Source: Tachypleus tridentatus
Lineage: Eukaryota > Arthropoda > Merostomata > Xiphosura > Limulidae
DNA length: 64,000 nucleotides
NCBI RefSeq assembly: GCF_004210375.1
Contig: NC_134833.1
Coordinates: forward strand, 21,445,396 to 21,509,395
Reading direction: 5' to 3'
Shown here: piece by piece, positions 15,960 through 57,800 of the stretch
How positions within the stretch are numbered: position 1 is the stretch's first letter
How the letters are laid out: every line of letters starts with the position of its first letter
Notes under the pieces: generated by a model
Database searches by the model: none
What the model was told of the DNA's origin: nothing
What the model saw: the letters and a program-made list of their open reading frames with translations, nothing else
Translations under genes and position numbers: made by a program

Positions 15960-16121
15960 TCAAGGATTGATCACACTCTCGATCCAGAGTTTGTAGGCTG
16001 TTATTTTCATGTAGACACCAGGCAGGTTGGGGCCTGCGCATTTGATGCCATGAGAAACTGTTCCAATGAGCATCCAACGTCCATCGTCCTTCTGTGTCAT
16101 CAACGGTCCTCCAGAATCGCC
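15960..16121 (-). CDS. Protease gene 1, exon 7 (catalytic Ser, stop)
   Basis: Acceptor TTATTCCAAG|GGC; codes [33 protein letters not shown] and ends VINP-TGA at 15960. Confidence 0.92.
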   Translation of the reverse strand, partial: GDSGGPLMTQKDDGRWMLIGTVSHGIKCAGPNLPGVYMKITAYKLWIESVINP

Positions 16122-19100
16122 CTTGGAATAAAAGGTCAGAGATGCATAAAAACGTTTAATTTTATGTTAGATATATTATCGTCAGTATAACTTTGAAGTA
16201 TGGTTGTATCTTGCATGTACTCAAGGTAAAAAATATCGCACGTCAGTCCGTGAATACTTTCAATAAATAGAATACTGAACACAACTTAAAAATGTGGTAA
16301 ACAAAACACAGAAATGTTATAAAATAGAAGTTTTAAGTACCATAAATCAACGTTTTATTTGAATGTTGTAAACCTATTTATTAATATGAACTTCCGATTA
16401 GAGCAAGTTGTGTGTATAAACTGATATTGTAAATTAACCTAATAATCAGAATAACTAATTAACTGTACTTTTCTTACGTTTCTGCTTATATATATTATAA
16501 TGGATCATTTGGGTACCATCGATGCTAGCGGTATTTTCGGTCATAATCCCAGTAATATCTCACGATATATTCAGCTTAGGAGACTTAGGTTAGTTCTAGA
16601 TCATATATATTAAATTAACAATACAAAATAATCTTTATAATAAAACCACATAATAATAAACAATATGTAAAAATAAAAACATTAATAAACAATAAATAAA
16701 AAATTAATGCTATTTAATGTAATAAATACTAAAACCAATAGTGTTATTAAAAGTAGCAATAAATAAACAATATAGTATATCTTTGCTTTGGGAATACAAC
16801 AGTACTAGATGTCAGCTTGAATTAATGTCATATAAGAAACTTCTTTGTAAAACGTAAACTCAGAATAATATGACTGTTTTTTTTTTCCCCAATTCTCCCT
16901 GGTACGTTTTTTGACCAAAGAAAACTCATAAGTCATCCTTACTGTCTAGCGTCAGAGGCAAATAACATCTTTATTCAACATGTGCTGCTGTTTTAACACT
17001 GTCAATTTTGTACCAGTGAATTTCACATAACACAATAAAAAACGAATGTTTATGAATAAACGAAATAATAAAATATTAAAGAAATAGTATATTTATCACT
17101 GAGTAACAGCATTAGAGGACTTCAGAATATTTGTTCAATTAATATGTAAATGGCGGAGCTCACTGAAAGCTTAGTACATCAAGTAGACGTTAGCATTGGT
17201 AGCCTACTTCCCTTATTATTATAAGACACACGATTTCTGACTGCGGACAGTTGTCGTTTTTCCGAAGCTAGCCTCAATATACGACAATAGTTCGCAAACC
17301 CTTTGGGGATTCACGAAATGTTTTTGAGGGGTTTCGAAAAACAGCCATTCCACCGATTAGATTATAACTTTAACATAAGACTCTTCATGAGAAATTGAAA
17401 GGTGAGGGAAGGTGCGTATTTCTGAGTGTTTTTAAAATGAAATCGACTGTAAGTGTTGTTTTTAGTGCTAAAATGAAAAACACGTTTAGGCTTAACGAGT
17501 GTGATACGAGTTACGAAAGTGAAATCCTGGAAGGCTATAGTTGTTTTCATAATGTAAAGGCCCGGCATGGCCAGGTGGAATAAGGCATTCGAATCTCTGT
17601 CGCGCCAAACATGCTCGCCCTTTCAGCCGTGGGGACGTTATAATCTGACAGTCAATCCTACTATTCGTTGGTAAAAGAGTAGCCCAAGAGTTGGCGGTTG
17701 GCGGTGATGAATAGCTGCCTTCCCTTTAGTCTTACACTGCAAAATTAGGTACGGCTAGTGCAGATAGCTCTCGTGTAGCTTTGTGCGAAATTCCAAAACA
17801 AACATAATGTAATAAAATTAATAATAAATAGTGTGTAATAAATGTGTCGTAAGGAAAACAAATTTTATGTTTCCGAGATCAATGTATGGAAAATACTTAT
17901 CTTTAGAAGGGGATTAGTGAGATTTGATATTTTCATGAGGGGAGTTCGCAGGGTACTAAACCTCCGGAACCTCTGGTGTACAGCAACGTTTAAGTTTTAC
18001 AAAAAAACAGAACTGTTTCTCAGAACGGCTGGTATAAGTAACAACACTTTTATTGATAAGTAGAGAACAACGTTTCGACCTTCCTAGGTCATCTTAACCT
18101 GAAGATAACCCAACAATGTCGAAACGTTGTTATCAATAAAAGTGTTAATACTCATACCACCTGTTCTGATATATATATTTTTTACTTCAAATGGGTTTCT
18201 CGTCATCAAAAATAAACAGAACTGTTGAGTTGAGAATGGTATTCATATATTAAACGTTGTGTTTTCTGATTTATCAGTGAGCGTTTCTCAGTTTATTTTT
18301 GAAGGTCTGAGGACGAGGATACAAATATGGACGACTACTTGAAACACAAGGTATTTAATGGATGTCTTTGACACAAAAAAGACAAAAATATTTAAACAGA
18401 ACTTACTTCACAAGAGTCCTGTCCTCCTGTCTCGTATCCAGCACAAATAAAAGTGTTCTTTATTATTTTGTCGTGGCCACTATGAAGGAACATTTCTTGA
18501 CACTTACTGTTTCCAATTATTGGTACTTTTACGTACTGTAAACGTTTTGGAACAGGACCATCTAAATATTTAAAATTATCATATAATGAAATATTGTATG
18601 TTAATCATGGCTACTTCAAAGTCAAATGAAAAGAAAACACCACATGTAATATTGAAAATTCTGATATTATTTTCACGACGTGACGTTACATATAATAATA
18701 GAAAACACGGATATTTTACAAGGCGTGACACTACATCTAAACAGAAAACAGATAATTCCAAGAGGTGACATTACATATAATAATAGAAAACACGGATACT
18801 TTCATGGCGTGACACTACATCTCAACATACAAAAATACATATATTTTCATGACAAGGAACAACTTTAACTGCAGAAGTGTACCCAAGCAGAATGATTAGT
18901 AAAGTTTTAGGTATTACATATGTAGTTTTGTCTGACAAAATCTATAGAACTAATCATTATTTATCCAAGTAACGGATATATATGTATATATAAACATAAA
19001 CATAATTCACAGACATTAACGACGTTCAACACAGAATTCTATAAACGTGCAACATGCCTGTGAGGTCTTCCCATAACCAACTGTGACGTCTGTTGTAACG

Positions 19101-22100
19101 TTAATTTAAATTCAGTCTGTTTAAGATTTCCTGTTCAGTTCACCCTAAAACAAAACTGAGACAGAAATTTTTGTTTACTGTGACAAGACTCGTCTTTGTA
19201 ATATTAAAACTAAAATCACCATGGAAGTCCTTCATCCAGCCTGATACAAAAACTGTCTCCTCTGTGAAGTTCTCTCATCTCGTTGCGTGTAACGAGACTT
19301 ATCTTTGTAATGCTAAAACTAAACATTATGTTATATGTTAAAACTGAAATCACCATGGAAGTCCTTCATTCAGCCTGTTACAAAAGTTGTCTCCTCTGTG
19401 AAGTTCTCTTATCTCGTTGTGTGTAACGAGACTTATCTTTGTAATGCTGAAACTAAACATTATGTTATATGTTAAAACTGAAATCACCATGGAAGTCTTT
19501 TCCTCATCTTGATACAAAAGATGTCTCTTCTGTGAAGTCTCAGCTTGTTACGTATGGCAAGACCTATCTTTATAATACTAAATCTGCAATTACCATGGAA
19601 GAGCTTTCCCCAGCCTGAGACAAAAGCTGTCTTCCCAGTAAAGTCATCTCCACTCTCAGGAAGACAGATTGGGACGATGTGAGGCTGAAACCTGACTGGT
19701 GTCTCCAGTTCCAGAAGTGCTAAATCATTTTCAAACGATTGCGTGTTGAAATTTCTGTGAACGATAATTTTCTTCACATTTTTCACCACAGGTTTCAAAG
19801 ATTCAAAATCACCTCCGAAATCGTGTTCTCCTAACACAACCACAAGAGAAGCTAGAACCCTGAAAAGTAAGTTGTGTTTCACGATCATAGAATAATCTAA
19901 TATTTGTGAAAGTGTTAAGGTAAAACACCATTTATTTATATAATTATAAAACGCATGCCGGAACACAAAATTTCACTTTCTATGATGGCACTAAATATTT
20001 AGTTAGATAATTAAACGTGTTTTTTTTTAAAAAAGGCTCATAAGTAACATAAAACATTTCTGCCGTATCTAATATTATTTAAACATAACTAATTTTAAAT
20101 AATTTTAGCAGTAGGAATATTAATAGAAAATACATTATTGTATTTTCAGTACAGATATAAATAGAATGGTGATGATATATAAGAACAAGAGTCTAACTAA
20201 AGTCTTCGTAAATGTAGGACTAACCTAAAATTCCTAAGCTAGCCGAACCTCGGGTGATATTATTGGGATTATGGCCGACATTATCGATAATAGCGAGTGC
20301 ACCCAAATGAAGAGGCAAGGTATTCTTATCATTATAGGCCTTATTCACCTCTTGTGTAGTTTTGTAATCGTAACTAGATTCGTTAATCTATCGATTACTT
20401 ATTAGTTCTGATTTATATTAGTATGTTTGTTTGTTTTGGAATTTCGCACAAAGCTACTCGAGGGCTATCTGTGCTAGCCGTCTCTAATTTAGCAGTGTAA
20501 GACCAGAGGGAAGGCAGCTATCATCACCACCCATCGCCAACTCTTGGGCTACTCTTTACCAACGAATAGTGGGATTGACCGTCACATTATAAACCTGGGC
20601 GAGCATGTTTATGCGACTACCCGCGACCCTCAGATTACGAAGTGCACGCCTTAACGCGCTAGGCCATGCCAGGCCTTTTATATCAGTTAACTTGCTTAAT
20701 AGTTACATCTCGGGTTTGAAAAACTGTATGGCTGTTTATCTTAAACAGGTACATTTGGTGAATGGTAGCAATCTATTAAGGTGTATTACGAAAAAAAGCA
20801 CAACTTCTTTAACAATTTCGTACACGCCCATAAAATGTCATTTAGGCATAGAGTACATTTTCGGAAATATTTAAATGTTGTATCAACCTTCCGAGTGGGG
20901 CGCCTTATTCTTTAGATAAACGTAACATGTTAGGAAAGTACAAGTTGCCAAATACGTAATATTACTTTTTATTAGTTGATTGTTTTGAAAGACTCACATT
21001 ATTTTTGTTTGTTTTCAGTTATGCACAAAACTGCGTAATGGGCTCTTTGTGGTAGACATACCACGAGTATCGCCTTCAGACTTGTCTGAAGCTGCGCCTC
21101 TGGGGATAGAGCCCCTATATCATTCCATTGAACTTACGACACATTACATACTATGTGTATAAATAATTCAGTACATTTTCAAATCTCAGGCTTTGTTCTA
21201 CACATCCGGTTCTTTTACACTTGAAACAAGTAAAATATTTCGTTCAGTTGGATGTTTACTCCGCTAGTACTCTGATGTATCAAAACATCCAAACAAAAGA
21301 TGTTATCGAAACCACAGGTTGTGTAGGACACGTTTACTACGCGAAAAAAAGTAGTTTGTTTCGCACAAAGTCACACGAGGGCTATCTGCGCAAGCCGTCC
21401 CTAATTTAGCAGTGTAAAACTAGAAGGAAGACGGCTAGTCATCACCACTCACCGCCAGCTCATGAGCTACATTTTTACCAACGAATAGTGGGATTGACCG
21501 TACCATTATAACGTCCCCCCGGCTGAAAAGGTGTTTGGTGTGACTGGGATTCGAACCTGGGACCCTCAGATTAAAAGTCGAGTTCCTTAACCACCTAGCC
21601 ATGCCATTAAATATAATAATAACAAAGTAGTACTTACCCTGGTTGGCAGTGAGCTGCTGTTATCACGTTAAATATAATAATAACAAAGTAGTACTTACCC
21701 TGGTTGGCAGTGAGCTGCTGTTATCACGTTAAATATAATAATAACAAAGTAGTACTTACCCTGGTTGGCAGTGAGCTGCTGTTATCACGTATTTGGAATT
21801 TAGTAAGACACCTCCACATTTATTCTTTAGAAACAGTCCCAGCCAAGTTGATTCCTTCAAAAGCACCTACACAATAACCATGATTACAATATTGTATATT
21901 ACAATATACGTATAGTATATGTTATCACTATTAACCTGTAGGTTTAAAGATAAATAGCTACTGTAATCTGCGCTGTCGCAGCTACTGAATTGTAGGTCTT
22001 AAAAATTAAAATCTAGAACACCTAGCGGCGAAGTTATTGCTTCAAAAAAGCGGCTGTTCCTCTTATAACCTCTTTTAGCATTGTTATTCTCGGTTTGATC

Positions 22101-25100
22101 TCAACATGATTTTAACATGTTTATCGAGCTTAGTCTTAGCAGTTGGTATGTCTGGACTGTCAATCCGAGTGTTCGCATTGCGTTTGTGCAAAAACGCACT
22201 CCGCACGTTGGAGATGTGAGTAACGGTCAAATCGCACTATTCGGTCAGACTACATAAAGCTCAACAGTTGGCGGGGGGCGCTAGCCGCTTTCACTGTACT
22301 GTTGCAGTTCAGTATTAGGGACGGCCATGTGTAGGTAGTACTTCGCGTATTTTTGTGCTAAAGTATTGAACGTAATACTAAAAGTGATGCTTTTGTATCT
22401 CGCCTTTCATGTCTTATTAGTTATGACTCTCTACTCGCAGTGTGCGAGTCACGTGCTCACAGTCCGTCACTAAACACACTCGTCCTTTTAGTTGTTGGGC
22501 CGTCATAATGTGACAGTCAATCCTACCGTTTTATGGAAATAAGTTGGCAGTGGACAGTGTCGAATAACTCTTTTGCTTTTAGTCTATCACTTCAAAAGTA
22601 AGGAAGGCTAGTTTTGTGCGAAATTCATCAAACAAACAAACAAGTTCTCGTATTAAAACCTTGTTATTTTCATCGCCATGTAAGTATTCACGACATATTT
22701 ATCGTTGACGTGTTACCCTCAGTCCTGAGCTTTTTAACTTGTACTTGTATTACAATTAGCCTGAAGAGATATGTACTAAGTGAAACAAACAGAATAAATG
22801 TAAAATATTATTACTGTACATTCATGAAAATCCCTAGGGTATTAGATAAAGATTATAGGGCTTGAAAATATAATAGGCTTAATACTAATATCTTATTACA
22901 AGTATAATTACAAACACTATAATTCATATTAAATCACTCATCTGTCATGGCCACTTTCTGAAATAAGCGTTATTTTCACTAACAGTTCTACCATCTGGAT
23001 ACCACTCACCTGTCATGGCCACTTTCTGAAATAAGCGTTATGACCACTAATAATTGTACAATCTGGACACCACTTACCTGTCATGACTACTTCCTGAAAT
23101 AAGTGTTATAACTAGTAACAATTCTATCATCTGGACACCACTTACCTGTCATGGCTACTTCCTGAAATAAGTGTTATAACTAGTAACAATTCTATCATCT
23201 GGACACCACTTACCTGTCATGGCTACTTCCTGAAATAAGTGTTATAACTAGTAACAATTCTATCATCTGGACACCACTTACCTGTCATGGCTACTTCCTG
23301 AAATAAGTGTTATAACTAGTAACAATTCTATCATCTGTACACCACTTACCTGTCATGGCTACATCCTGAAATAAGTGTTATGACCACTAACAATTCTATC
23401 ATCTGGACACCACTTACCTGTCATGGCTACTTCCTGAAATAAGTGTTATGACCACTAACAATTCTATCATCTGGACACCACTTACCTGTCATGGCTACTT
23501 CCTGAAATAAGTGTTATAACCACTAACAATTCTATCATCTGGACACCACTTACCTGTCATGGTTACTTCCTGAAATAAGTGTTATAACTAGTAACAATTC
23601 TATCATCTGGACACCACTTACCTGTCATGGCTACTTCCTGAAATAAGTGTTATAACTAGTAACAATTCTATCATCTGTACACCACTTACCTGTCATGGCT
23701 ACTTCCTGAAATAAGTGTTATGACCACTAACAATTCTGCCATACGGACACCACTTACTTGCCAAGGCCACTCTCCAAAGTAAGCGTTACGACCTCCAACA
23801 ATTCTACCGTACGGCCTTAACGACCTGACCCCACAGTCTAAAAGGGATAAAAAAAAAGTGAGCAGTGAAATAAGCTGTTAGTAGTTAAGTATCAAGATAT
23901 TCTAACCGTATTCACTTAATTTCCAAGACTTTATGCCTTTGTTAAACAATGTGTTACCAAGTACTGTTCAAGAACTTGTTGATCAGTGTAACTTGCACAA
24001 CTAAAACTATAATACTATATGGTTACCACAATGATTTTCTGTTTCTGAAAATGTTGGAACCTAAATAGCATAAGATGAGGATTAGTTCTAAACTATTTTA
24101 CATCGTTATTGATGGTTAAAAGAATAATCACTTCCTTTTTTATATAACTTCTATCTTTTGTTTGTATCTTAATATCATTGAGTCGAATAAGAAAACATTC
24201 CCACAAATATCTGAAAAATATTCATAGTACGTTTTAAGGGTCAGGCGCAGGGTAATGGTTCCATATCAGCTTGTGGGTTTAGGAATCGAGATGTGACGCA
24301 GCCTTAACTGCACAGTGGGTGTGTTATAAAAGTAACAGACAATGCCACGATTAAGTTCAAAGAACCGGACAAACCTAAGATTATGATGTTGACTGACTGG
24401 TTTTCATATGCTCATTTTGGAACATCTAAGCCTAAATTCCAGGAAGTCTCTGATTTGACTGGTTTAACCCACATGCTAATAAGGTGTCTTCTTATTTTAA
24501 AAAATCCAAATCCATTTTTATAGTGATGCACTTTTAATAAGCCCAGTATTTTCCTTTTTAAAAAGAGAACATCAAAGCTGAATAATCCTCAATTAGGAAA
24601 GAGAGAGAAATGCCCTAGAAATGCTTTCAAATACAGAACTTAAAAACAAAACAACAATAAAAGGGCTTCAACGAGCCACTGGAAAACTTGTTTGTTTGAT
24701 TTTCTTATAGCAAAGCTACACTGGGCTATCTGCTGAGTACACGGAGGGGAATCGAATCCTTGATTTTAGCGTTGTAAATCCGTAGATTTACCGCTGTACC
24801 CGTGAGGAACCCGCTGGAGTCCCTAAAAGGTAGTTTTATAAAACTAAATGCATGGATAAATATGAGATTCATTCAGATTCTCTCGTGGTAATTTTGTTCC
24901 AAAAATAGCAGGATTAAGATATCTTTGGACAATAACAAACCGAAAGAGAAATTGGATGTTGTTTTAACCTTTTAACCTTTAACCTTGGATTTAACCTTTT
25001 CTTTAAACTTCTTAAATAATGTTTTCGATAACTAGAGTATCAAAAGAAATTTCGGCTGAAATGTAAATATTTGTGTTTATTTGAAGTTTAGGACAAGGCT

Positions 25101-28100
25101 GTACAATGGACTCTCTGTACTCGGTACTTTTTTACAAATTAACGTTTTCTTGTTGCTGTTTTATTTTTTTCCCGTAGTTAACAACGTTAGTAACGGAAAA
25201 TGTTTGGATTTGCAGGACTATATAAAAATGGAAGATGGATTAATTAATTATTTGTTCGCTTAAGGCAAAGCCACTAAAACTATCTGTCACATTCCCTAGT
25301 TTTGAACTACTGACCACAGAGACGTGACCAGTCGATAGCACTCATGGCCAACTCTTGGGTTCTTTTTACCAACTAATAGTGGGATTAATATCCACATAAT
25401 GGCTCTTCCACACTTGAAGGGAAGGAAATGTACGGTGCTGGGTTGCGATCTCGGGACCCACAGATAACGAGTCAAACGTCCTAGCTTACAGCCAGAACCT
25501 CGACAGGTTAAAATACAAGGTTGTTTGAAGTTAAGCACAAAGCTACACAATAGGCTATCTGTGCTCTGCCCACTATCACTATCGAAAACCAATTTCTAGC
25601 GTTGTAAGCCTGCAGACATACTGGTGTGCCAGTGGGAGGCGATTTTTTTTTTTTTTTAGATTGGTTTGGTTTGTTTTGAATTTCGTCCAAAGCTACACGA
25701 GGGCTATCTCTGCCAGCCGTCTCTAGATTAGCAGTGTAAGGCTAGAGGGAAGCCAGCTAGTCATCACCATCCACCGCCAGCTCTTGGGCTACTCTTTTAC
25801 CAACGAATATGACCGTCACATTATAACGTCCTCACGGTTGAAAGGGCGAATATGATTTTGGTGTGACGGAGATTAGAATTCGCGATTCTAGGATTACCAG
25901 TCGAGTGCCTTAACCACCTGGCCATGGCGGGCCTTTTTTTAGATGACAATTTAATATATTGTAATTGAAGGTATCTGACCTTTACTTTCACTGGAATTAA
26001 TCACCTTGCAAGCTACACAATGTGCTATCTGTGCTGTGCTCACCACGAGCATCAAAACCCGGTTTCTAGATGTGTGAGTCCGCAGACATACCGCTATGCC
26101 ATTAGGGGGCAGAATGCAATTGAACAGAAATGTCGACACGTCGATAAGTGGAAATCTGTAATTGTATTCTACTAGTGCAAATGACAATGTATAATATAAT
26201 TTCTTTCTAAAAATATTAAGATGTGTCGAAAAAGAATTGTCATATTTTTCATCTGCACCATCAATTGACAAAAGTCTGTGTGTATCTGTTCGTTTATAGT
26301 TGGCAAAGTGATGGAACAATTGTCACCAGATTTGTTATAGTCACTTAGATGTCCAAGGAAATGACATAGGTTGGTTAGGCCTTCTCGCCTCTACCCCCTC
26401 GTCTGGTTATCCCAAGGGTAATAATTCTGCCTCATGTGTTATATATTTTAATAATTGGCGAGGCGCAAAACTGGTTGTCACCAAAACTTGCATCTACCTT
26501 ATGTCCCACAAAGAGTGCCATGGGGTCGTCATTCGAATCTTTTCTGTCTCACCCCTAAGGCCTTTGTAGTTTTCCCTGCACGTTGACTGTTTGTTTGCTT
26601 TTTAATTCACGCAAAGCTACACGAGGGCTATCTACCCTAGCCGTCCCTAATTAGGCAGTGTAAGACTAGAGAGAAGACAGCTAGTTATCACCACCCACTG
26701 ACAAATCTCGGGCTATTCTTTCACCAACGAATAGTAGGATTGACCGTCACATTATATAGTGCCCGCACGGCTGAAAGGGCGAGCATGTTGGTGCAACGGG
26801 GATTCGAACCCACGATCCTCAGATTACGATTCGAGCGCCTTAATCACCAGGCAATGCCGGACCACCCTGCACGTTGAAAGGGGCTCAAACAACATTTTAA
26901 GTGCCCACACGTGTAAATTAATAGCCCTGAACTAATAAACTGTTTCGGAAAAAAATCGATTTTCATGCTAGCGTTTCCTGTTCTTTCCAAACGCTAGATA
27001 ATTTATAACAGGACAGTTCCTAAGATGTCAGAGTTACAGGATCATATTCAATAGCTGTATAACGAATTAGATAAGACAGAACCACCTGGTGGGATAATCA
27101 CCTTCTTATCGTTCACTTTTGTGTCCTCAATCTGGAGATAGGCTGATATGATCAAACTTCAGTCCAAAATTAATCATTTCGTTTTACCTATTGTTATTTT
27201 AATAACGTGTTTTAATTCGTTAAGTTTGATTAACAATAAAGAGGAACTGGTATGTGTTAAACTTATGACTTTTTCTGCCATATTTGACAATATTTTACAA
27301 TAACTTACTAAACACGGCTGTGAGTAATTTATTTCGGTTCGATACCTTTCAAGTGATCCACGTGCTAATATAAGGCACTGAACATGTAATTACCTTTCCT
27401 GTAGTCCCATTGTTGCTTGGCTGTCATTAAAGGAGTTACTCTACTTGGAAGAGTGCTTGACGTCACTTTCATAATGTTTGTTGCCTTTGGTGAGGTGTTT
27501 TGACTCACAATGTCCGAATTAAAGGGAAGTTTGGTGCTGACGTCGGTGTTGGTATCAACTTGTGTTGCTGCTTCTATATGCGGTCTTGATGTATCGCTGA
27601 TCGTTTCGTAGTAATACTTTTCAGAAGTTAGTTTTGTGCTGACTTCGACCAGAGTTTCTTCTGCTTCTAGCTGATCCAAAATGGACTGGACCCCCGCAAT
27701 TGGAACATCATGGTTAAGTGGGGTTAAAGTCGTTATCTGTGTAGCTGAGAGTATCTTGTCAGTAGAAGATGTAGGGATAGTTTTCTCTTGAAAAGCTGGA
27801 GATGTGACGGTGTTCTCGAGCCTAGTGCTAGAAGCCACAATTATGTCTTTATCGTCAGAGTCGCAGGGGTTTAAATTATCCACTACAGTATTGTTTCTAC
27901 TGATAACACTTTGAGTTACATTAAAATCGTTTAATTTTGTGTTCAACTCTGGCTTGGTAGATGTACGAGAATAGGCGAGACTCACACTTGACGTTGTCAC
28001 CATTGTATTGGTAGTATCATAAACGGTAGCAGTGCTTGTCTTTGGAGCAGAAATTTCGTTATGAGGGGTGAAACTGGTGAAATGGTGATTGTCTACAGAC

Positions 28101-31100
28101 TGAGAGGGAGTTGGAGATAGTGAAACTAGACCTTGGCTTGTAGTATCCTTCTTAATAACATGTTGGGTCTCGACAATGGGTTTTTGTTTTACAGTATTTG
28201 CAAGACTAGAAATGGTATTAAAAGTCTCTTGTTGGGTATGTGGCCACCTAACGGTGGGCGTTGTACTTAATAGACTAAATAGAGCACTACTGCCATCTAG
28301 TGGTTCATGTGTCGTGTAATGATGCCCGCTTGAAGATGATGCTACATTTTTTATTGGTTCCTTCGTTACATTCGATGACGGTAGTTTACAACAGGTGAGA
28401 TAGAAAAAACCGTTAGTACAAGTAGAGAGTAATACGCCATCTTTGTTAATGCAGTTCCACTTGAAAATACAAACTCCTGAATTACCACTGGCGTCTTTAC
28501 ATGTTTTCTTAAGAAGGTTCAGAGTTTTCCCTAAGTAAATAAAATAAATACAGTAAAAATTAACGTAAAAAATGCTCTCTTAAATATAGAATCAGACCTT
28601 AATCATTCAGCATCAACTCTGACTACGGAAACTTGCATCAAAATAAGCTTTATGATGTTCTAATTTGTGAGCTAAATCAATTTGGTCATTCAGCATCAAC
28701 TCTGACTACTGAAACTGACATCAAATAGTGCGAAATCGTCGTTAAAGTTTTGACACCACTATTAAGTACGTAAAACTGAAAAATAATTCAAATATTATCA
28801 CATATTTAATAGTGTACACGGTGTATGACTCAGTGTTAAACCAAGTGTTATTTATATGCATCAGTGTACACTCTGCATGACTCAATGTTTACTCACTTGA
28901 GTTATTTATGTGTATCAGTATAAACTCTGTATGAGTCAATGTTACCTCAAATGTTATTTATATGTATCAGTGTACACGGTGTATGACTCAGCGTTAAACT
29001 AAGTGTTATTTATATGTACTAGTGTACACTCTGCGTGACTCAACCTTAAGTAAAACACAATAATGGATGCCCACGTAACTTATCTAATTTTCTTATTCGT
29101 TTTCATTTCACCATTTTCTTGTAGGCCATCATAATATCACATTTTAAGAATTTTTCCACATCTATATATGCTGCCATATTTTCACATTTTTAATTAAACC
29201 ATATTCGTAAAGGATTTCACAGTTACATTTTTTCTTCAAATTTCACGAAAAACTGCTTTTAAGTTTGCGAGTTTGTAGCAAGACATTTCTCTTTATTTTC
29301 AGCCTAATATTTAAGTAACGATACGAAAAGAGTTTTGCCACAATTGAATGAAGATAAAGATATAATTGCAACGGGTTTAGCGAGAAGTTTCTTAAGCATC
29401 TGAGAAGTTTATAAGCATGTGCAAAACAGAGAAAGTCCAAAATTTATAAAATGATGTTGGGTGAAACTTATGGACGGTGTAGAAAACGATTATTGTACTT
29501 TAGGCATCCAGTAGCTCAGCGGTAAACTTTAGGGATTAGACCCTGAGACTCGTGTTTCAATGCCTGTGGTAATTACAGCACAAATACTCCATTGTATAGC
29601 TTTGCTCTTAACCACAAACAAAGAAGCAGTGATTTAACCTGTTCTGCTCTGTTTCTGATAACACTGGTTATTTTGAGTTCAGAGTCAGTTATTACACGTG
29701 TTAGAAAATAAAACAATAACAACAAATTATTTTGAAGTTACTTTAATGTTCTAGAATGATTAAAGTTCTGAAGGCGTGAAGAAACGAAGCTAAGAGCCAA
29801 AATTCGCACGACAGAATTATTACAAAACCTACACAGCATATCGAACAAGAGACATGTGAAAGAAAACCGAAACCTTTGGCATGAATGCACTCGACTGCAT
29901 TAGACGCTACTTTTAGGAATGTTCACTCACATGAAAATCCATTGATTAAATAATGAATTATTATTTTTTGCTCATAAGACAAGGAGATGCAAAGGCATAA
30001 CAAAGTTTCACGTACATAGATTTTCTTAGTAAAACAAACTTGTCTCAGTACTTGGCTAATAATCACGAAGAGAAAAGACGAAATAAGAGCGACTTGTCAG
30101 AATAGCATGTTTACCAGATGTTACGAAAACGTTAACTCAAACGGTGAGTCGAGCTAGACTGTTGTCATAAGATTCGTGTCCGAAACGTACCAGCTGATCA
30201 TTTCTCTCCTTTATTTAACTTTCTATCACAGTGTAAGATTCAACATTAACTCAAATAGAGTCACGTCTGTACCACAGTACTATATGTAAAATTCAAAATT
30301 AACTCAAATATAATCACGTCTGTACCACGATACTATATGTAAAATTCAACATTAACTCTAACGTTACCACACTTGTATCACACTACATACACACCATGTA
30401 AAATTCGACATTAACTCTAAATTTATCACATTTGTACCACACCACATACACATCATGTAAGATTCAACATTAACTTCAACGTTATCACATTTGTATCACA
30501 CTACATACACACCATGTAAGATTCAACATTAACTCTAACGTTATCATATTTATATCACACTACATACACACCATGTAAAATTCAACATTAACTCTAAATT
30601 TATCACATTTGTATCACACTACATACACACCATGTAAAATTCAACATTAACTCTAACGTTATCACGTTTGTATCACACAACATACACACCATGTAAAATT
30701 CAACATTAACTCTAAATTTATCACATTTGTATCACACTACATACACACCATGTAAAATTCAACATTAATTCTAACGTTATCACAATTGTATCACACTACA
30801 TACACACCATGTAAGATTCAACATTAACTCTAACGTTATCACGTTTGTATCACAATACATACACACAATGTACGATTCAACATTAACTCTAACGTTATCT
30901 TATTTGTATCACACTACATACACACCATGTAAGATTCAACATTAACGTTATCACGTTTGTATCACACTACATACACACCATGTAAAATTCAACATTAACT
31001 CTAAATTTATCACACTTGTATCACACTACATACACACCATGTAAAATTCAACATTAACTCTAAATTTATCACATTTGTATCACACTACATACACACCATG

Positions 31101-34100
31101 TAAGATTCAACATTAACTCTAACGTTATCACGTTTGTATCACAATACATACACACAATGTACGATTCAACATTAACTCTAACGTTATCACGTTTGTATCA
31201 CACTCACATACACACCATGTAAAATTCAACATTAACTCTAAATTTATCACATTTGTATCACACTACATACACACCATGTAAAATTCAACATTAACTCTAA
31301 CGTTATCACGTTTGTATCACACTACATACACACCATGTAAGATTCAACATTAACTCTAACGTTATCACGTTTGTATCACAATACATACACACAATGTACG
31401 ATTCAACATTAACTCTAACGTTATCACGTTTGTATCACACTACATACACACCATGTAAAATTCAACATTAACTCTAAATTTATCACATTTGTATCACACT
31501 ACATACACACCATGTAAAATTCAACATTAACTCTAACGTTATCACGTTTGTATCACACTACATACACACCATGTAAGATTCAACATTAACTCTAACGTTA
31601 TCACGTTTGTATCACACTACATACACACCATGTAAGATTCAACATTAACTCTAACGTTATCACATTTGTATCACACTACATACACACCATGTAAGATTCA
31701 ACATTAACGTTATCACGTTTGTATCACACTACATACACACCATGTAAGATTCAACATTAACGTTATCACGTTTGTATCACACTACATACACACCATGTAA
31801 GATTCAACATTAACTCTAACGTTATCACGTTTGTATCACACTACATACACACCATGTAAGATTCAACATTAACTCTAACGTTATCACGTTTGTATCACAC
31901 TACATACACACCATGTAAGATTCAACATTAACTCTAACGTTATCACATTTGTATCACACTACATACACACCATGTAAGATTCAACATTAACGTTATCACG
32001 TTTGTATCACACTACATACACACCATGTAAGATTCAACATTAACTCTAACGTTATCACGTTTGTATCACACTACATACACACCATGTAAGATTCAACATT
32101 AACTCTAACGTTATCACGTTTGTATCACACTACATACACACCATGTAAGATTCAACATTAAATCTAACGTTATCACGTTTGTATCACACTACATACACAC
32201 CATGTAAGATTCAACATTAACGTTATCACATTTGTATCACACTACATACACACCATGTAAGATTCAACATTAACGTTATCACGTTTGTATCACACTACAT
32301 ACACACCATGTAAGATTCAACATTAACGTTATCACGTTTGTATCACACTACATACACACCATGTAAGATTCAACATTAACTCTAACGTTATCACGTTTGT
32401 ATCACACTACATACACACCATGTAAGATTCAACATTAACTCTAACGTTATCACATTTGTATCACACTACATACGCACCATGTAAAATTCAACATTAACTC
32501 TAACGTTATCACATTTGTATCACACTACATACACACCATGTAAGATTCAACATTAATTCTAACGTTATCGCATTTGTATCACACTACATACACACCATGT
32601 AAAATTCAACATTAACTCTAACGTTATCACGTTTGTATCACACTACATAACACCATGTAAGATTCAACATTAACGTTATCACATATGTTTGAATGTATAT
32701 ATTTAAGCCTTAATGTTAACAAAACATAATTTACTTAGAGAATGCCAGTTGAATAGAACACATTTTTCTCACGTGTGAGTGTTAAACGCGAGAACAACAG
32801 ACCAAATAATTACAAAAGGATACGCTCTGAATGATAAAGGATAAAACAGAAGTTAAATATTAAAGAGTACAGGAGTTTCACAGTGAGTACCTGTCGGAAA
32901 GTTACGGAGGTAAAAATTCATGTCATCTCGGTAGATGACTAAATATTCTCTGCATTTCGACATTTTGTTCTGTCGAATAAATAATAAATGTTAAGTATTC
33001 TTGATTAAATGCCAAACTGTAGTTGTAAAAAGTCATTTTAGATTAATAATTGAGGCAACGTTCCATAAGATTTCAGCTAGTTTGAATGATACCATTGATA
33101 CACCAGAAAATTTGAGTCGATATAATAATTAGTTTGTTTGTTTTTGAATTTCGTGCAAACCTACACGAAGGCTCTCTGCTGTAGCCGTCCCTAATTTAAC
33201 AATGTAAGACGAGTTGGAAGGCACCCATCGCTAACTCTTGGGCTCCTCTTTTACCAACGAATAGTGGGATTGACCGTCACATCATAATGCCCCCACGACT
33301 GAAAGGAGGAGCATGTGACGGAGACTCTTAGATTACGACCCGAGCGCCTTAACCACCAGGCCATGCCGGGCCTATAATAATTAGAGATGGTCAATTACAT
33401 TTTATAATAACAATTAGAACGATTTAAAGCAGCGGTTGTTGCAGACATGGGCCTTGGTATCAAGGGTTACTTGTTTATCATCAATATACGCGCTTCATTG
33501 CGAATACCAAGCCAGTAGAAAGTCTAATGTTGTGTAGGGTGCAGTTATGACCATGTAACAGCTTTTTCATACAAATAATATTCAGATATCAAGATTATTA
33601 AACGATATAAAGGACTCAAACCTTGAATTATCTGAATGGAAGCAAGAAAATGTACACACTAGAATGTTTAGAACAGGAATGGACATGATACCACACAACA
33701 ACCATATTCCGTGAGCATGATACCACACAACAACAATATTCCGTGAGCATGATACCACACAACAACCATATTCCGTGAGCATGATACCACACAACAACCA
33801 TATTCCGTGAGCATGATACCACACAACAACAATATTCCGTGAGCATGATACCACACAACAACAATATTCCGTGAGCATGATACCACACAACAACCATATT
33901 CCGTGAGCATGATACCACACAACAACCATATTCCGTGACCATGATACCACACAACAACCATATTCCGTGAGCATGATACCACACAACAACCATATTCCGT
34001 GAGCATGATACCACACAGCAACCATATTCCGTGACCATGATACCACACAACAACCATATTCCGTGAGCATGATACCACACAACAATCATATTCCGTGAGC

Positions 34101-37100
34101 ATAATACCACACAACAACCATGTTCCGTGAGCATGATACCACACAACAATCATATTCCGTGAGCATGATACCACACAACAACCATATTTCGTGAGCATGA
34201 TACCACACAACAACCATATTCCGTGAGCATAATACCACACAACAACCATGTTCCGTGAGCATGACACCACACAACAATCATATTTCGTGAGCATTATACC
34301 ACACAACAACCATATTTCGTGAGCATTATACCACACAATAACCATATTCCGTGAGCATGATACCACACAACAACCATATTCCGTGAGCATAATACCACAC
34401 AACAACCATGTTCCGTGAGCATGATACCACACAACAATCATATTCTGTGAGCATGATACCACACAACAACCATATTTCGTGAGCATGATACCACACAACA
34501 ACCATATTCCGTGAGCATAATACCACACAACAACCATGTTCCGTGAGCATGATACCACACAACAATCATATTTCGTGAGCATGATACCACACAACAACCA
34601 TATTTCGTGAGCATTATACCACACAACAACCATATTCCGTGAGCATGATACCACACAACAACCATATTCCGTGAGCATGATACCACACAACAACCATATT
34701 CCGTGAGCATAATACCACACAACAACCATGTTCCGTGAGCATGATACCACACAACAATCATATTCTGTGAGCATTATACCACACAACAATCATATTCCGT
34801 GAGCATGATACCACACAAGAACCATATTCCGGACAATGTCAGTGTCCGCAAAAGGAAACTGGAAATATCCACAAATACCGTTAAAAGCCTTTAACAAATT
34901 TAAAGATGGCAAAGACACACACAAGCCTAAAATTTAGAAGTTTCCAGAAATCAAGACTGTTTTCGTGATAAAGATGACTTAAAAAACTGGAACCACAGCA
35001 ATCTAATTGGATCACATATCTGTTAGATTTCCTAATGCAAATTCAATAGACTCCTACTCTTTGTTTCAGTTATAGGTGGCTTAGAAAATTATATGTTACA
35101 CGAACATTTCGTCATCTAAGATCGATTCTTCTCTGAAGATTGTTATAAAATCAGAGTGTTAGAGACGGTCAAGAGAGGCAGCAGTCTAAAGCAGTGGTTT
35201 TCAACCCGTGATCCGCGGATCCCTGGGGATCCGCGAAGTTCGCCCAGGGGATCCGCAAGACCGACAGATGTACAATGTGCAATTAATGTAGTATCAATGT
35301 GTATCAATATGTAGTATCACATCAATGTAGGTACAGTAGTACACTGTATCAATGTAATTAGTGCATCTTGTCGAGATAACTCGTCGTTCACATCTGAAAC
35401 CAGCATTGTTTGTTTGGAAATTTCGCACAAAGCTACTCGAGGGCTATCTGTGCTAGCCGTCCCTAATTTAGCAGTGTAAGACTAGAGGGAAGGCAGCTAG
35501 TCATCACCACCCACCGCCAACTCTTGGGCTACTCTTTACCAACGAATAGTGGGATTGACCGTCACATTATACACCCCCACGGCTGGGAGGGCGAGCATGT
35601 TTAGCGCGACGCGGGCGCGAACCCGCGACCCTCGGATTACGAGTCGCACGCCTTACGCGCTAGGCCATGCCGGGCCGCTGAAACCAGCAACCTTCGCTAA
35701 CGTTAGGGAAGAACTGCGCGCGCACATTTGCAGTCAAGCAGTCCAGTTATGACGACGACCTACGTCATTTCATTTAATTGAAACATTTAATGTAGCCAAT
35801 ACTATCCGGCGTGACGCTCTGCTGGTCTACTTCTTGTGTATCAGCTATGAGAGGTACAATAGGAAGGAAGGAACAAATGAGAGCGCGAGGTGGCAGATTA
35901 CCAAATAAGGTCATCAGTGTTAATCGAAGGAAGGGACTCAGACGTGCGCACGTGACGTCTATGCGGAGCGTGGGAAAGGCAGGCAGGAGGATACTGCAAC
36001 ACTGCTGAAGAGAAAACTATAGATGAATGAAGAAATTCGTGCGTATCGGCTTGTATGAGTTCGATGACGAAGCATTGCCGAAAGAACGGTGTAGAATAGG
36101 CGTCATTCAAGGTTACAGAACTGTATGCGTTATCCAATCATGCAGCGCCAGGCGCTACTGATGTATAGCCTAGCGTAGTTTAATTTAAACCATAAAACAT
36201 TGTCTCAGATTACTCATCATCGGCTAGACAACGTGAAGTGTGAGTACCTATTCAATTTTTTTATTTTTTATTGAATGCTTGTAAATGGATTTGAAGAAAG
36301 AAAACGTTATAAAAATTGATAAAAATCAGAAGACTCGACTATATGATTCAGATTATTTAGCTTTTGATTTATTGCTAGCGACGATCGGAACTGCCCATCA
36401 CCATTATGTTTAGTTTGTGGTGAGAATTTATCAAACAGTTCAATGCTGCCATCTAAGTTGAAGCGTCATCTGATATCAAAACATCCTAATTTGGCTGATA
36501 AAACCAAAGAATACTTTCAAAGACTGAAAGAATCTACTTCAAAACAAGCTCGTATATTTGAAAGGAAGTTCAACATCAGCCAAGCAGATGAAGCCACATA
36601 CAATCGCTGAATCGTTAATATTACCAGCATGTGTTACCATTGCGAAGATTTTTTTTGGAGATGCTGCTGCTGAAGAAATTAAGAACATCCCTCTGTCTGA
36701 CAACACAATAGGCAGGCGGATTACGAACATGTCAGTTGATATCGAAAAAGGGGTTATGTTAAAATTGAAAGCTGCTGATTTTTTTGCTATTCAAGTGGAT
36801 GAAAGCACAGATTTAAGTGGAAAATCACAGTTACTTGCTTTTATTAGATTTATTGAAAATGATGGAATTGTCGAAGACTTTTTATGTTGCAGAGAACTAC
36901 CAGAAACAACGAAAGAACAAGATATATATGATGCACTTACCTCGTACTTGAATCACTGGGACTTGACATGGGAAAAGTGTGTTGGAATATGCACAGATGG
37001 TTGTCCTTCAATGATTGCAAGTGTAAAAGGTTTTGTCACATTGGTAAAGCAATCTCAGCCAAATATTTTCATAACACATTGCTTTCTTCATCGTGAAGCT

Positions 37101-40100
37101 CTAGTTGCCAAAGCTATTGGCCCAGAGCTAAAAGAGGTACTTGATATGGTGGTCAAGATGGTCAACTACTTAAAGTCAAGGCCAGTGAAATGCCGGCAGT
37201 TCACTAAACTTTGCGAAAGCATGGATGCTGAAAATGTCACGCTTCTATTTCATACAGAAGTCCGATGGCTCTCTCGAGGACGAGTGCTATCTCGATTTTA
37301 TGAACTTAGAGAAGAACTAATGATTTTCTTTACAAGCAACAATATTGAATATGTGAAATTTCTGAGTGACGAAAGTTGGTGTTTAAAATTGGCCTACCTA
37401 TCTGACATCTTCCAGCACCTGAATAATTTGAATATGAGTATGCAAGGGAAAAAGGAGAACATTCTAACTTCGGTAGATAAAATCAATGCGTTCAAAAGGA
37501 AATTGATTATTTGGAAAAAGCATGCTTTGCGAGGCAATTGTGAAATGTTTCCACTTTAGTTCAAAGAACAAATTTAATTGACATTTTGCCATTGATAATT
37601 AACCATCTGGAATCTTTAATTAAAGGATTGGATAAATATTTCCCTTCAATATCGCTTGAAGAGTATGATTGGATTAGAAATCCATTTGTTGAATCTTTGA
37701 ACGTGGATTTCAGTTTGACCGACGAGGAAGAGTTGGCAGGTATTTCAAATGACCGGACACTTAGAATGAAGCACACTGAACTTGATCTGGACTCATTTTG
37801 GATTTTAACTGCAAAAGAATATCCATCAATCTCGAATAAGGCTCTGCGCATTCTCCTGCAGTTTTCTACATCACACCTGTGTGAAATAGGATTTTCCACC
37901 ATGACGAACATTAAAAGTAAGAAAAGAAATAAATTACTAGCACTTGAAGAAGAGATGCGTGTATGTCTTTCTAAAACCAGGCCAAACTATCCAGTTCTGT
38001 TCAAAAATCACCAAGGACAAATTTCACATTAATTTGTAATTCTCTTGAATAAACAAATTTAGATGGTACTGTATTGTGTTTTTGTGTATATAAACCGTTT
38101 TTATTTCATTGAAAAAATCTTATATATATATATTTATGTACAAGGGGATCCGCAAGAAAAAATGAGCTCCTCGGGGGATCCGCGCCTGCAAAAAGGTTGA
38201 AAAGCACTGGTCTAAAGTGTAGCCTGTGATCTGAAATATCATTGTTATAAAGTATAATAACACCCGACTATCAACCAACAGTTCGTACCATCAATCATTA
38301 GTTGATAGTGTCAAACAGTAATTTATACCATCAACCAACAGTTCGTACCATCAACCAGTATTCCATACTGTCACCCAACAGTTTGTGCTATCAACCAGTA
38401 TTCCATACTGTCACCCAACAGTTTGTAATATCAAACAGTAGCTTATACTGTCACCCAACAGTTTGTACTATCAACCAGTATCCCATATTGTCACCCAACA
38501 GTTTGTACTATCAACCAGTATTCCATACTGTCACCCAACAGTTTGTACTATCAACCAGTAGTTCATACTGTCACCCAACAGTTTGTACTATCAACCAGTA
38601 GTTCATACTGTCACCCAACAGTTTGTACTATCAACCAGTAGCTCATACTGTGACCCAACAGTTTGTACTATCAACCAGTAGTTCATACCGTCACCCAACA
38701 GTTTGTGCTATCAACCAGTATTCCATACTGTCACCCAACAGTTTGTAATATCAAACAGTGGCTTATACTGTCACCCAACAGTTTGTACTATCAACCATTA
38801 TTCCATATTGTCACCCAACAGTTTGTACTATCAACCAGTATTCCATACTGTCACCCAACAGTTTGTACTATCAACCATTATTCCATATTGTCACCCAACA
38901 GTTTGTACTATCAACCAGTATTCCATACTGTCACCCAACAGTTTGTACTATCAACTAGTAGTTCATACTGTCACCCAACAGTTTGTACTATCAACCAGTA
39001 GTTCATACTGTCACCCAACAGTTTGTACTATCAACCAGTAGTTCATACTGTCACCCAACAGTTTGTACTATCAACCAGTAGTTCATACTGTCACCCAACA
39101 GTTTGTACTATCAACCAGTAGTTCATACTGTCACCCAACAGTTTGTACTATCAACCAGTAGTTATGCCATGAAGCAGGAATTCTTCGCTTGTTGCTCTTG
39201 ACGGAAAACAATTAGTTATCAACACATACAAACTTTCTTTACTATGTATGATACAAACTTTTAATATTCTTGGACTAAAGCTTACAGAATATGGTATATG
39301 TAAATAAACAAGACAGTTTTCACTCTAAGTTATGTAATTATACGAAAGCTCTCATTGTAGATTATATAACTGTACAAACATTATCACGGTCAATTTCATT
39401 GTAGATTATATAACTGTACAAACATTTTCATGGTCAATTTCATTGTAGATTATATAACTGTACAAACATTATCACGGTCAATTTAACTGTAGATTATATA
39501 ATTTCATGAAGAGTTTCACTGCTACTTTGTTTATTGTTTATAGAATAAAATTAATATTTCTACTGTTACAATACGGATTTACTTAAGTTAACCAAAGCGT
39601 AATATACTTACAATATTAGGCACACGTTCTAAAAGAACCAAGTTTGTGATCGAACAATTTTCCACACTAAGCTTTGTGTATACAAAAGCGATCGGAGAGA
39701 TTTCATGCTCTTGTCCTGCTGTTCCTTTTCGAGATTGTACGCGTTTATATTGGACAACGTCAAATTTCACCTTCTAAGGTCAGAAGATCCTTCTTAGATC
39801 CAGAAACGTGAACAATCTGGATCATATTGTGTGATGTGATGATGAATCTCAACTTTAATGTACCCATGAAGTTTGGTTACAAATCCAATTACACTTAACA
39901 GAATTATTAACCAAAAAGTGTAAGAAATGCCCTATCTCTTAGTTATAAAAACTGCTCCAAACCGAGATCAAACAAAACTTGGGAAGAACTGACCCATACT
40001 AACTTCCCATCTTATGTAAAATTTATTTGTACATCGGTTCATTAGTTTTCGAGATACGTACGCGGAAACACGAACATAAATACATGAACCTGCTTGCAAT

Positions 40101-50189: not shown

Positions 50190-50416
50190 TATATAATAAT
50201 CAGCAAATTTAACAAAACACGTGTGGTTCAAAGTTACAACAAATTTAACAAAACACGTGTGGTTCAAAGTTACAACAAATTTAACAAAACACGTGTGGTT
50301 CAAAGTTACAACAAATTTAACAAAACACGTGTGGTTCAAAGTTACAACAAATTTAACAAAACACGTGTGGTTCAAAGTTACAACAAATTTAACAAAACAC
50401 GTGTGGTTCAAAGTTA
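50190..50416. repeat. 36-bp minisatellite, 6 copies
   Basis: AAATTTAACAAAACACGTGT, GGTTCAAAGTTACAAC; copies nearly identical. Because 36 is divisible by three, open frames appear on both strands (NHTCFVKFVVTL); these are artefacts. Confidence 0.95.
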
Positions 50417-54705: not shown

Positions 54706-54864
54706 TTATTTTATATTCTTTAAAATCCAGGTTTTGTACTTTGATATTCTGGTACAGACTCCTGGTAGATTGGGTTCGCCACATCCGATCCCCCATGATA
54801 TTATACCGGCCAAAAACCATCGTCCATCTTCACCCTGGACTTGCACGGGTCCTCCAGAGTCTCC
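54706..54864 (-). CDS. Protease gene 2, terminal exon (catalytic Ser, stop)
   Basis: Acceptor TTTATCGTAG|GGA; GDSGGPVQVQGEDGRWFLAG, IISWGIGCGEPNLPG, ends NIK-TAA. Confidence 0.92.
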   Translation of the reverse strand, partial: GDSGGPVQVQGEDGRWFLAGIISWGIGCGEPNLPGVCTRISKYKTWILKNIK

Positions 54865-57800
54865 CTACGATAAACAACATAAACATTATAAATTATCGCT
54901 ATTAGAAAAAGACGAACCTCTTGACAGATTCTCGTTTGAAAAGTAAACGCTAATTTACACTTATTTTACAGAATATTTAAACTATAAACGAGCAAAAGAA
55001 AATAATCCTTAGTTTTGATGATCCAATTACCAGGAAAATAAGCGTGACTTACACAGGAAGACGGGAAAATCTGAACACAGGAGCGTAACATGTTGGTAAT
55101 GTGACTGGTGTTCCAGGATTCTGTTGGTAATGACATGATATTCACGTACTCTGCCAGTGAAGGTATTAGTATTATAATGAAAGATTTGTTGGGTAAAAGG
55201 ATTTTTAACTTTTATTTGAGTTGTTGTTTGATAAGCTTCATGTTCAGTGACTGAATGAGTGGTAGCACCTTATTTTGAGTGTTTTTTCTTCTTTAGTTTG
55301 AAGAGCATTCAGTCACCTTCTTACAACTGTTCACAGCCAGTGAAGGCATATTTATACTGCCTGATATAAATGGGGGACGTTATCGGTTTGAGTAGTCACA
55401 TTTCGCTCTCATAATTTCTGTTTTTTTATTATTTTATTCTGATTATTTTATTATTTTTATCTAATTCTGATTATTTTATTATATTTATTCAATTGTGGTT
55501 ATTTTATTATTTTTATCTAATTCTGATTATTTTATTATTTTTATCTAATTCTGATTATTTTATTATATTTATTCAATTGTGGTTATTTTATTATTTTAAT
55601 CTAATTCTGATTATTTTATTATTTTTACCTAGTTTTGATTGTTTTATTATTTTTATTCAATTGTGGTTATTTTATTATTTTTATCTAATTGTGGTTATTT
55701 TATTATTTTTACCTAATTTTGATTGTTTTATTATTTTTATTCAATTGTGGTTATTTTATTATATTTATTCAATTGTGGTTATTTTATTATTTTTATCTAA
55801 TTGTGGTTATTTTATTATTTTTACCTAATTTTGATTGTTTTATTATTTTTATTCAATTGTGGTTATTTTATTATATTTATTCAATTTTGGTTATTTTATT
55901 ATTTTATTTAATTGTGGTTATTTTATTATTTTTACCTAATTTTGATTGTTTTATTATTTTTATTCAATTGTGGTTATTTTTTTATTTTTATCTAATTGTG
56001 GTTATTTTATTATTTTTATCTAATTTTGATTACATTATTATTTATTTTATGAATTTCTTCACGTGAAACTGGTGAACGAAGTGTTCCGAATGCATGAGGG
56101 ATTGTAAGACCCGCCCCACATTTTATTTTCAGTTCTACCTTGAAGCAGTCGGATATGCAACGAACATTACGATATGGCTCACCAAGTATGTTTTGCAGTA
56201 AAACGCAGTTGTGATTGAAAAATATCATGTAAGAAATTGGTAATGACTAATAGGTTCACAATATCGTGAAGTAAAGATGAGTTGAGCCCGTTGAGATAGC
56301 TGAGTTACAGCTGTTAACACATTACCAACTTAAGCCTTTTTATTTAGGTTTCGGTCCATTTTACCAAATAACATTTAACATTTTACTTCGAGCTCGAAAT
56401 ATAGCATTACAAAGTAAGCTAATCAGCGCCATACCTGACAAGAATCTTTTCTTCCTTCTTCGAGGCCAGAGCACATAAAAATGTCAGGAATATACTCGTC
56501 TTCCTGCAGCCAAGAACATAATCTTGCATTTATGGTTGCTAATAATGGGAACTTGAACTTCCTGTAGAATGGACGGAAGAACTCCACCTGTGAAGGACAT
56601 TAGGAGATCAAATATAGTTACACTGTTTAGCATCAAAACGTACCTGATTTAGTCGTCTCAAGAAACATCACGACCTTTATGGTGAACCTTGAAAATGGCT
56701 GCTACATCTGGACACAAAATAGTATTAGTTTTCAAGAAACTCAGTGGATTAAGGTTTCTGAGACGTGTACAATAAACAAAAACAATTAAGACTGAAATAA
56801 TTTGTTGAAAATATGAAATCTGAGATGTTTGAAAACTTGGTTATCTTGTACATTTTACAACGAATTCAAATCCAGATGACTCAAATACACTAGCTTATCG
56901 ATAGTATGTGGATATTTAGTTGAAACTGGACAAATCTAATTGATCACTGTTCTAAAACAATAAAGCTCTCACTGTTTTGTGTCAGGTACAAATCATGTCT
57001 GTTTTGTTTTACCTGAAAGGTGAGCCACTTAATGAATATTAGATAACTGTGGACAGATATTCCAATTTGAAGCTTTTAAGTAGTTTCAAAGATGACAAAT
57101 GAAGTTAAGATCTGGGTTTTCTGTGGATGGAAGAGCAATATGGACTTCCAGACAGTCCAAAAGATGATGTATAGTAAAAACTGTCTAAGCCGGAAACTGC
57201 ATAGGGCGGAAACATTTACAAACCGGAAGTATCAAAATTTAGCAGCATTATCTTAAGATTTTTCTCCTAAAAGGTCCTCTATATGGCGGAACCTGCGTAA
57301 GGCGGACGTAAAACTATCTTTCACCTACCACATCTATCAACAAGTAGGATTAGAACCTGAGTAAGGTGGAAAAAATGATTTTGATTAAATATGAATTTCT
57401 TATTTAATTAATAATTTGTTTAAATATTAATAAATTCTCGGACATTTTGTTACAGTAAGTTGTGGTTAAATATATTCTGTTCTTTTTTCTGCCGTTATTA
57501 TTCCGGAGGTCGCTATTAGAAAGAAAGATTGACTGTACATCTGGTCACATTTATTGATGTAAAACTATAGAAACCATGGTTGATAGGTAAAAGTGAAAAT
57601 CCGAGCTGTTTCAAAAATGTAAGGAAAAATCAACTTCCTGTGAAAGTGAATAATAAAACGTGGATGACAAATGTTGTATTCGAGGAATTTTTGAACAAAT
57701 TAAACAAAAGAATGGAACAAGAAAATAGGAACATTCTACTTTTCCTAGATAATGCAACTTGTCACCCAAAACTTCAACATTCAAATGTTTTGTTTAGTCT

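Follow-up and report, generated by a model that had tools for sequence, protein, structure and literature searches.

Host gene and its three donor-spanning arrays

Why should three consecutive exons of one gene each be trailed by a tandem array of the exon's own 3' end and 5' splice site? This arrangement was found at exons E1, E2 and E3 of gene A, which lies in the window (the whole 64-kb stretch of DNA that was analysed). Gene A is on the minus strand and encodes an animal-type (trypsin-type) serine protease. The six exons found up to 28.5 kb of the window, E0 to E5, and the three arrays are as follows, in gene order.

27394-28530, minus strand: exon E0, 1137 nt, Ser/Thr-rich by eye, precedes the protease domain; donor without an array
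23758-23837, minus strand: exon E1, 80 nt, activation site RIVGG...WPWQ; first intron base 23757, donor CAA/GTAAGT
22931-23814, minus strand: array A3, 68-bp unit of 57 nt from the end of E1 plus 11 intronic nt; the exonic copy and 12 intronic copies
21760-21866, minus strand: exon E2, 107 nt, TAAHC with the catalytic His; first intron base 21759, donor AGG/GTAAGT
21607-21789, minus strand: array A2, 61-bp unit of 30 nt of exon end and 31 nt of intron; three identical copies
19594-19859, minus strand: exon E3, 266 nt, catalytic Asp region; first intron base 19593, donor ATG/GTAATT
19204-19643, minus strand: array A1, four copies of about 50 nt of exon end with the intron start
18407-18561, minus strand: exon E4; donor without an array
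15960-16121, minus strand: exon E5, GDSGG and the stop codon

When E0 to E5 were joined via the exon-proximal donors, they gave a single open frame terminated by a stop, with intron phases 1, 0, 2, 1 and 0. The joined protein covered the full Pfam Trypsin profile (E=6.2e-61). Its top solved structures, among the best 60 of 557, were enteropeptidase, plasma kallikrein and chymotrypsin. Human factor VII (F7), considered below, is a trypsin-family gene too.

The first-pass annotation of this DNA had described donor-spanning arrays at three neighbouring exons that grow into the intron. This was confirmed by TRF together with an alignment of the donors. TRF called A3 at 22935-23806 (period 68), A2 at 21607-21790 (period 61, 100% matches) and A1 at 19204-19538 (period 134). 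In gene sense, all three arrays start within the exon, cross the donor and enter the intron, and the repeat spans the exon/intron boundary in each. The real donor is in the first repeat of A1, A2 and A3. The intronic copies also carry splice signals, as GT was retained in 11 of 12 copies in A3, both copies in A2 and all three in A1. In each array, the conserved protease residues and the full exon continuation were found in the exon-proximal copy alone. The donor-to-donor spacings of A1 were 106, 134 and 134 nt. Judged by eye, about 28 additional intronic bases are present in the longer units, and the intronic share of the unit is about 56-84 nt. Microhomology at the unit ends was likewise judged by eye: A2 shows no more than 1 bp, and for A3 none was seen.

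Comparison of the A1, A2 and A3 units gave nothing beyond 7-base matches (E 0.6 or worse). Since the units are unrelated, these results point to three separate events, and the independent origin claimed in the first-pass annotation is upheld. We then considered the products of the downstream donors. There are 17 possible downstream-donor isoforms, and nine were modelled (the first four of 12 at E1, both at E2 and all three at E3). All nine reached a premature stop, including two that lengthen the exon by a multiple of three.

The minisatellite density of the window seems very high. Minisatellite-type repeats form 20 arrays of 11 kb in all, about 17% of the window, after TRF rows were merged by hand. 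Among them, a 59-bp array at 30232-32674 has about 40 copies, and the GC skew over 30001-32000 is -0.49, a strong asymmetry between the strands. At 50204-50416 a 36-bp unit, whose length is a multiple of three, recurs in about six identical copies, with long open frames on both strands. Transposase remnants with a DDE_1 domain, which we take to be pogo/Tigger-like, lie at 157-818 and 57571-58024. A hAT-type transposase was found at 36528-38029, its C-terminal dimerisation domain above the Pfam cut-off and DUF4371 below its cut-off. Rfam at gathering thresholds and ARAGORN with the bacterial code found nothing in the window.

History of the copies and age of the introns

The A3 copies retain a record of their descent. 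At 11 sites every one of the 12 intronic copies departs from the exon in the same way; one of these changes is TGG to TGA, so that a stop replaces the second Trp of WPWQ in 12 of 12. Seven of the 11 fixed differences are at third codon positions (binomial p=0.039), which suits an exon that was changing under coding constraint, with the exception that one of the seven is the stop itself, which necessarily arose in the copy. Copies 1-10 differ from one another at 0-8 of 68 sites. From these ten, the two most distal copies differ at 9-15 sites; the exon copy differs from every other copy at 15-21. The shared differences and this pattern of distances indicate that one founder copy in the intron decayed first and was multiplied afterwards, while the edges of the array escaped homogenisation. 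Homogenised inner copies with the boundary copies left out were found in A3 only; for this comparison A1 has too few copies and A2 has no variation. A TTTCAG acceptor-like site was also seen 16 nt ahead of the donor in 11 of the 12 A3 intronic copies (23025-23705), the two sites lying as if they bounded a tiny exon.

In A1, nine fixed differences were counted across 60 aligned sites. A stop is present within the exon-derived stretch in two of the three intronic copies and is missing there from the third. A2 is recent or recently homogenised, because there is no variation among its copies. A SINE-like element (21330-21606) lies flush against A2 on its intronic side, the junction coinciding exactly with the unit boundary. 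It is unlikely that A2 arose by SINE-mediated duplication, as a target-site duplication flanking the element, because the unit matches the window solely at the three array copies. The SINEs of the window presumably resemble those of horseshoe crabs. When viral contigs were scanned for the SINE core and the A3 unit, no matches were found.

A paralogous protease gene in the same window, gene B, was used to date the introns. Its exons are listed here under the numbers of their gene A counterparts.

54706-63193, minus strand: gene B, paralogous protease with intron positions common with gene A
63087-63193, minus strand: gene B E2
59821-60089, minus strand: gene B E3
56435-56587, minus strand: gene B E4
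54864 down to about 54706, minus strand: gene B E5

E1 of gene B was not found within the window. The intron phases after E2 and E3 of gene B (2 and 1) and the phase of its E2 acceptor are the same as those of gene A, and no array was found at its three known donors. As gene B has the same intron places and phases without arrays, the introns after E2 and E3 of gene A look older than the arrays, and by this comparison they do not appear to owe their existence to duplication. By eye, from the translations, the reading frame shifts part-way through E4 of gene B (56435-56587). This frame change suggests that gene B may be a pseudogene, or that the sequence contains an error.

We consider it probable, at roughly three chances in four, that the arrays are donor-side mirages produced by ordinary minisatellite birth together with a selective filter that lets additional donors persist downstream of the real one. 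A short tandem duplication would by chance have covered the exon end and the 5' splice site of a pre-existing intron, as gene B supports. Splicing would pick the most upstream donor, and the exon-proximal copy would stay exon. The downstream copy would then have turned intronic and been free to decay, which is seen in A3 as the common stop and the fixed differences. Usual minisatellite turnover, by unequal exchange or slippage, may have multiplied this intronic founder. Such turnover would have kept the inner copies alike while the exon copy and the distal ones remained divergent, as A3 illustrates. The donor-side pattern would be mainly survivorship in a minisatellite-rich genome, as other placements would damage the mRNA; the twenty arrays that make up 17% of the window favour this. 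The arrays themselves are most likely neutral. Tolerance with the first donor winning had been among the options of the first-pass annotation and is the one that fits best, with first-donor use presumed and each of the nine modelled downstream isoforms ending at a stop.

Donor preference and other accounts

The first-pass annotation had proposed a process that favours donors. Such a process would make the 5' splice junctions of this lineage a birth hotspot for tandem arrays beyond selection filtering, for example through breaks tied to transcription or splicing by way of co-transcriptional pausing or R-loops. We judge this to be unlikely, although some of the statistics lean towards it. The arrays cover three consecutive donors of gene A, that is, three of the 8 known donors and none of the 10 known acceptors (Fisher one-sided p=0.069); these junctions are from genes A and B only, and further exons in the window could alter the counts. 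A local repeat was present at 17.9% of 2552 window sites at the threshold used, and 3 of 8 donors against that rate gave p=0.16. With four other settings the counts were still 3/8 and 0/10; p ranged from 0.14 to 0.19 when the window was the reference and from 0.06 to 0.16 when 925 points in known introns were. Gene A alone, with 3 of 5 donors covered, gave p=0.043.

A placement test was performed in which 20 arrays were randomly placed in 4000 trials per rule. For this set, TRF rows were merged by hand, two dinucleotide runs were omitted, and A1 and A3 were extended to the exonic copy. When exons were ignored, at least three donors were covered in 12.9% of trials, at least three junctions of either kind in 57%, and at least three donors with no acceptor in 0.2%. 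When exons were spared and one exon-end overlap was permitted, the corresponding figures were 0.8%, 7.4% and 0.4%. With donor overlaps only, exon-sparing placement covered at least three donors in 0.6% of trials (p=0.006). Exon-sparing placement expected 0.5 covered donors, and 3 of 8 were seen (p=0.008). When donor and acceptor overlaps were both tolerated, 0.57 acceptors were expected against 0.49 donors, and no acceptor was covered. The earlier donor-preference claim is best served by the exon-sparing figures, which hint at more than survivorship; the p values of 0.006-0.008 belong to a case chosen after the fact as striking, with every covered donor in one gene.

Against a hotspot, the simple tests were not significant, and random placement reached three junctions, when either kind was counted, commonly in the free trials and at times in the exon-sparing ones. 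At the thresholds used, none of the five remaining known donors, two in gene A (E0 and E4) and three in gene B, had array-like copies. Downstream of the E4 donor there are two exact matches, one of 12 bases (E 0.006) and one of 11 (E 0.024), which we attribute to chance. Amphioxus mirages occur at acceptors too. The sense-strand GC skew was +0.32 in the E1 array, -0.09 in the E2 array and +0.16 in the E3 array, with GC of 36-39%. The arrays are therefore without a common strand skew, and R-loop-linked breaks, which the first-pass annotation had named as a possible cause, find no common signature here. The three arrays exceed chance as repeats but are weak as a sign of donor preference. One window is too little to establish that donors are particularly liable to arrays.

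Could the arrays instead be functional decoys, whose repeated strong donors recruit U1 or tune dosage by nonsense-mediated decay? Donors were scored against the U1 consensus. Copies 1-10 of A3 keep CAG/GTAAGT, which matches the consensus at 9 of 9 positions, whereas the real E1 site, CAA/GTAAGT, matches at 8 of 9. The stops gained in all nine modelled isoforms are also in line with decoys. However, one of the 9 columns of the donor core varies in copies 1-11, compared with 19 of the 68 columns of the whole unit, a contrast too small for constraint; the most distal A3 copy has lost its GT, and the donors of the A1 copies are weaker than that of the exon (5/9 against 6/9 consensus matches). Selection on the intronic donors is not demonstrable from the variation in the copies, and we regard decoys as quite improbable. 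As copies 1-10 of A3 outscore the real donor, minisatellite birth with a selective filter requires a preference for the upstream donor; the A1 intronic copy whose exon-derived part lacks a stop also tells against that account.

An assembly artefact or collapsed heterozygosity would be suggested by the 100% identity of the three 61-bp A2 copies in one assembled haplotype, but it is very improbable for the set, as the A1 and A3 copies differ by many substitutions and those of A3 do so in an ordered inner/edge pattern that is unexpected from misassembly. Least credible of all is that the arrays created the introns: the literature does describe intron gain by tandem duplication of stretches that contain splice signals (PMC4974935), and mirages were proposed as such a route in the available text of PMC3087553, but gene B lacks arrays and shares the introns after E2 and E3 and the E2 acceptor, its E1 donor being out of view.

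Comparison with known boundary repeats

The first-pass annotation knew of no named mechanism for such arrays. This does not stand, as the arrays belong to a class of repeat that has been described already, though it is seldom noticed. Tandem repeats that cross an exon/intron boundary are called mirages in amphioxus, where they occur at both 5' and 3' boundaries; in the accessible part of a report on the amphioxus globins their origin is called unclear and work on Adh3 is cited (PMC3087553). The amphioxus genes listed in the text available are Adh3, the globins BflGb6 and BflGb9, and troponin C; the repeat units measure 10 to 160 bp, splicing is regular, and the copies at the boundary evade homogenisation. 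Further similar repeats were described for PGBD5 (PMC3902484, available portion), and variable repeats at exon-intron boundaries for human paralogs (PMC2812944, available portion). The accessible part of a Daphnia tandem-repeat paper did not mention splice sites. In the open-licence literature, the titles and abstract openings among the matches listed gave no report of three such arrays in consecutive exons or of a genome-wide donor test for them. Mirages are little known, and the papers found under that name concern amphioxus. Three mirages in consecutive exons provide a natural series on the origin of boundary duplications and the use of the first donor, with one array of identical copies and another in which a degenerate founder is still readable. 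A genome-wide donor excess, if true, would implicate a mutational process linked to splicing.

As far as the available portions of the sources go, three known systems can be set beside gene A. In the tandem genomic duplication model of intron gain (Rogers 1989 and Hellsten 2011, as cited in PMC4974935), a short tandem duplication bears splice signals, as here. Unlike in that model, which makes a new intron, the introns of gene A appear older than the arrays. Intron 7 of human F7 contains 37-bp repeats, and splicing there normally takes the 5' splice site that lies furthest upstream and no other. As in F7, the donors of E1, E2 and E3 of gene A sit in the first of several near-identical repeats. 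The F7 unit is shorter, and F7 splicing was studied experimentally, whereas gene A was read from its sequence only. Like the amphioxus mirages, the arrays of gene A include many-copy boundary repeats with splice signals, and in A3 concerted evolution inside with boundary copies that escape it. Unlike the amphioxus mirages, which occupy both boundaries, those of gene A are at donors only, three in a row, in another gene and presumably another animal.
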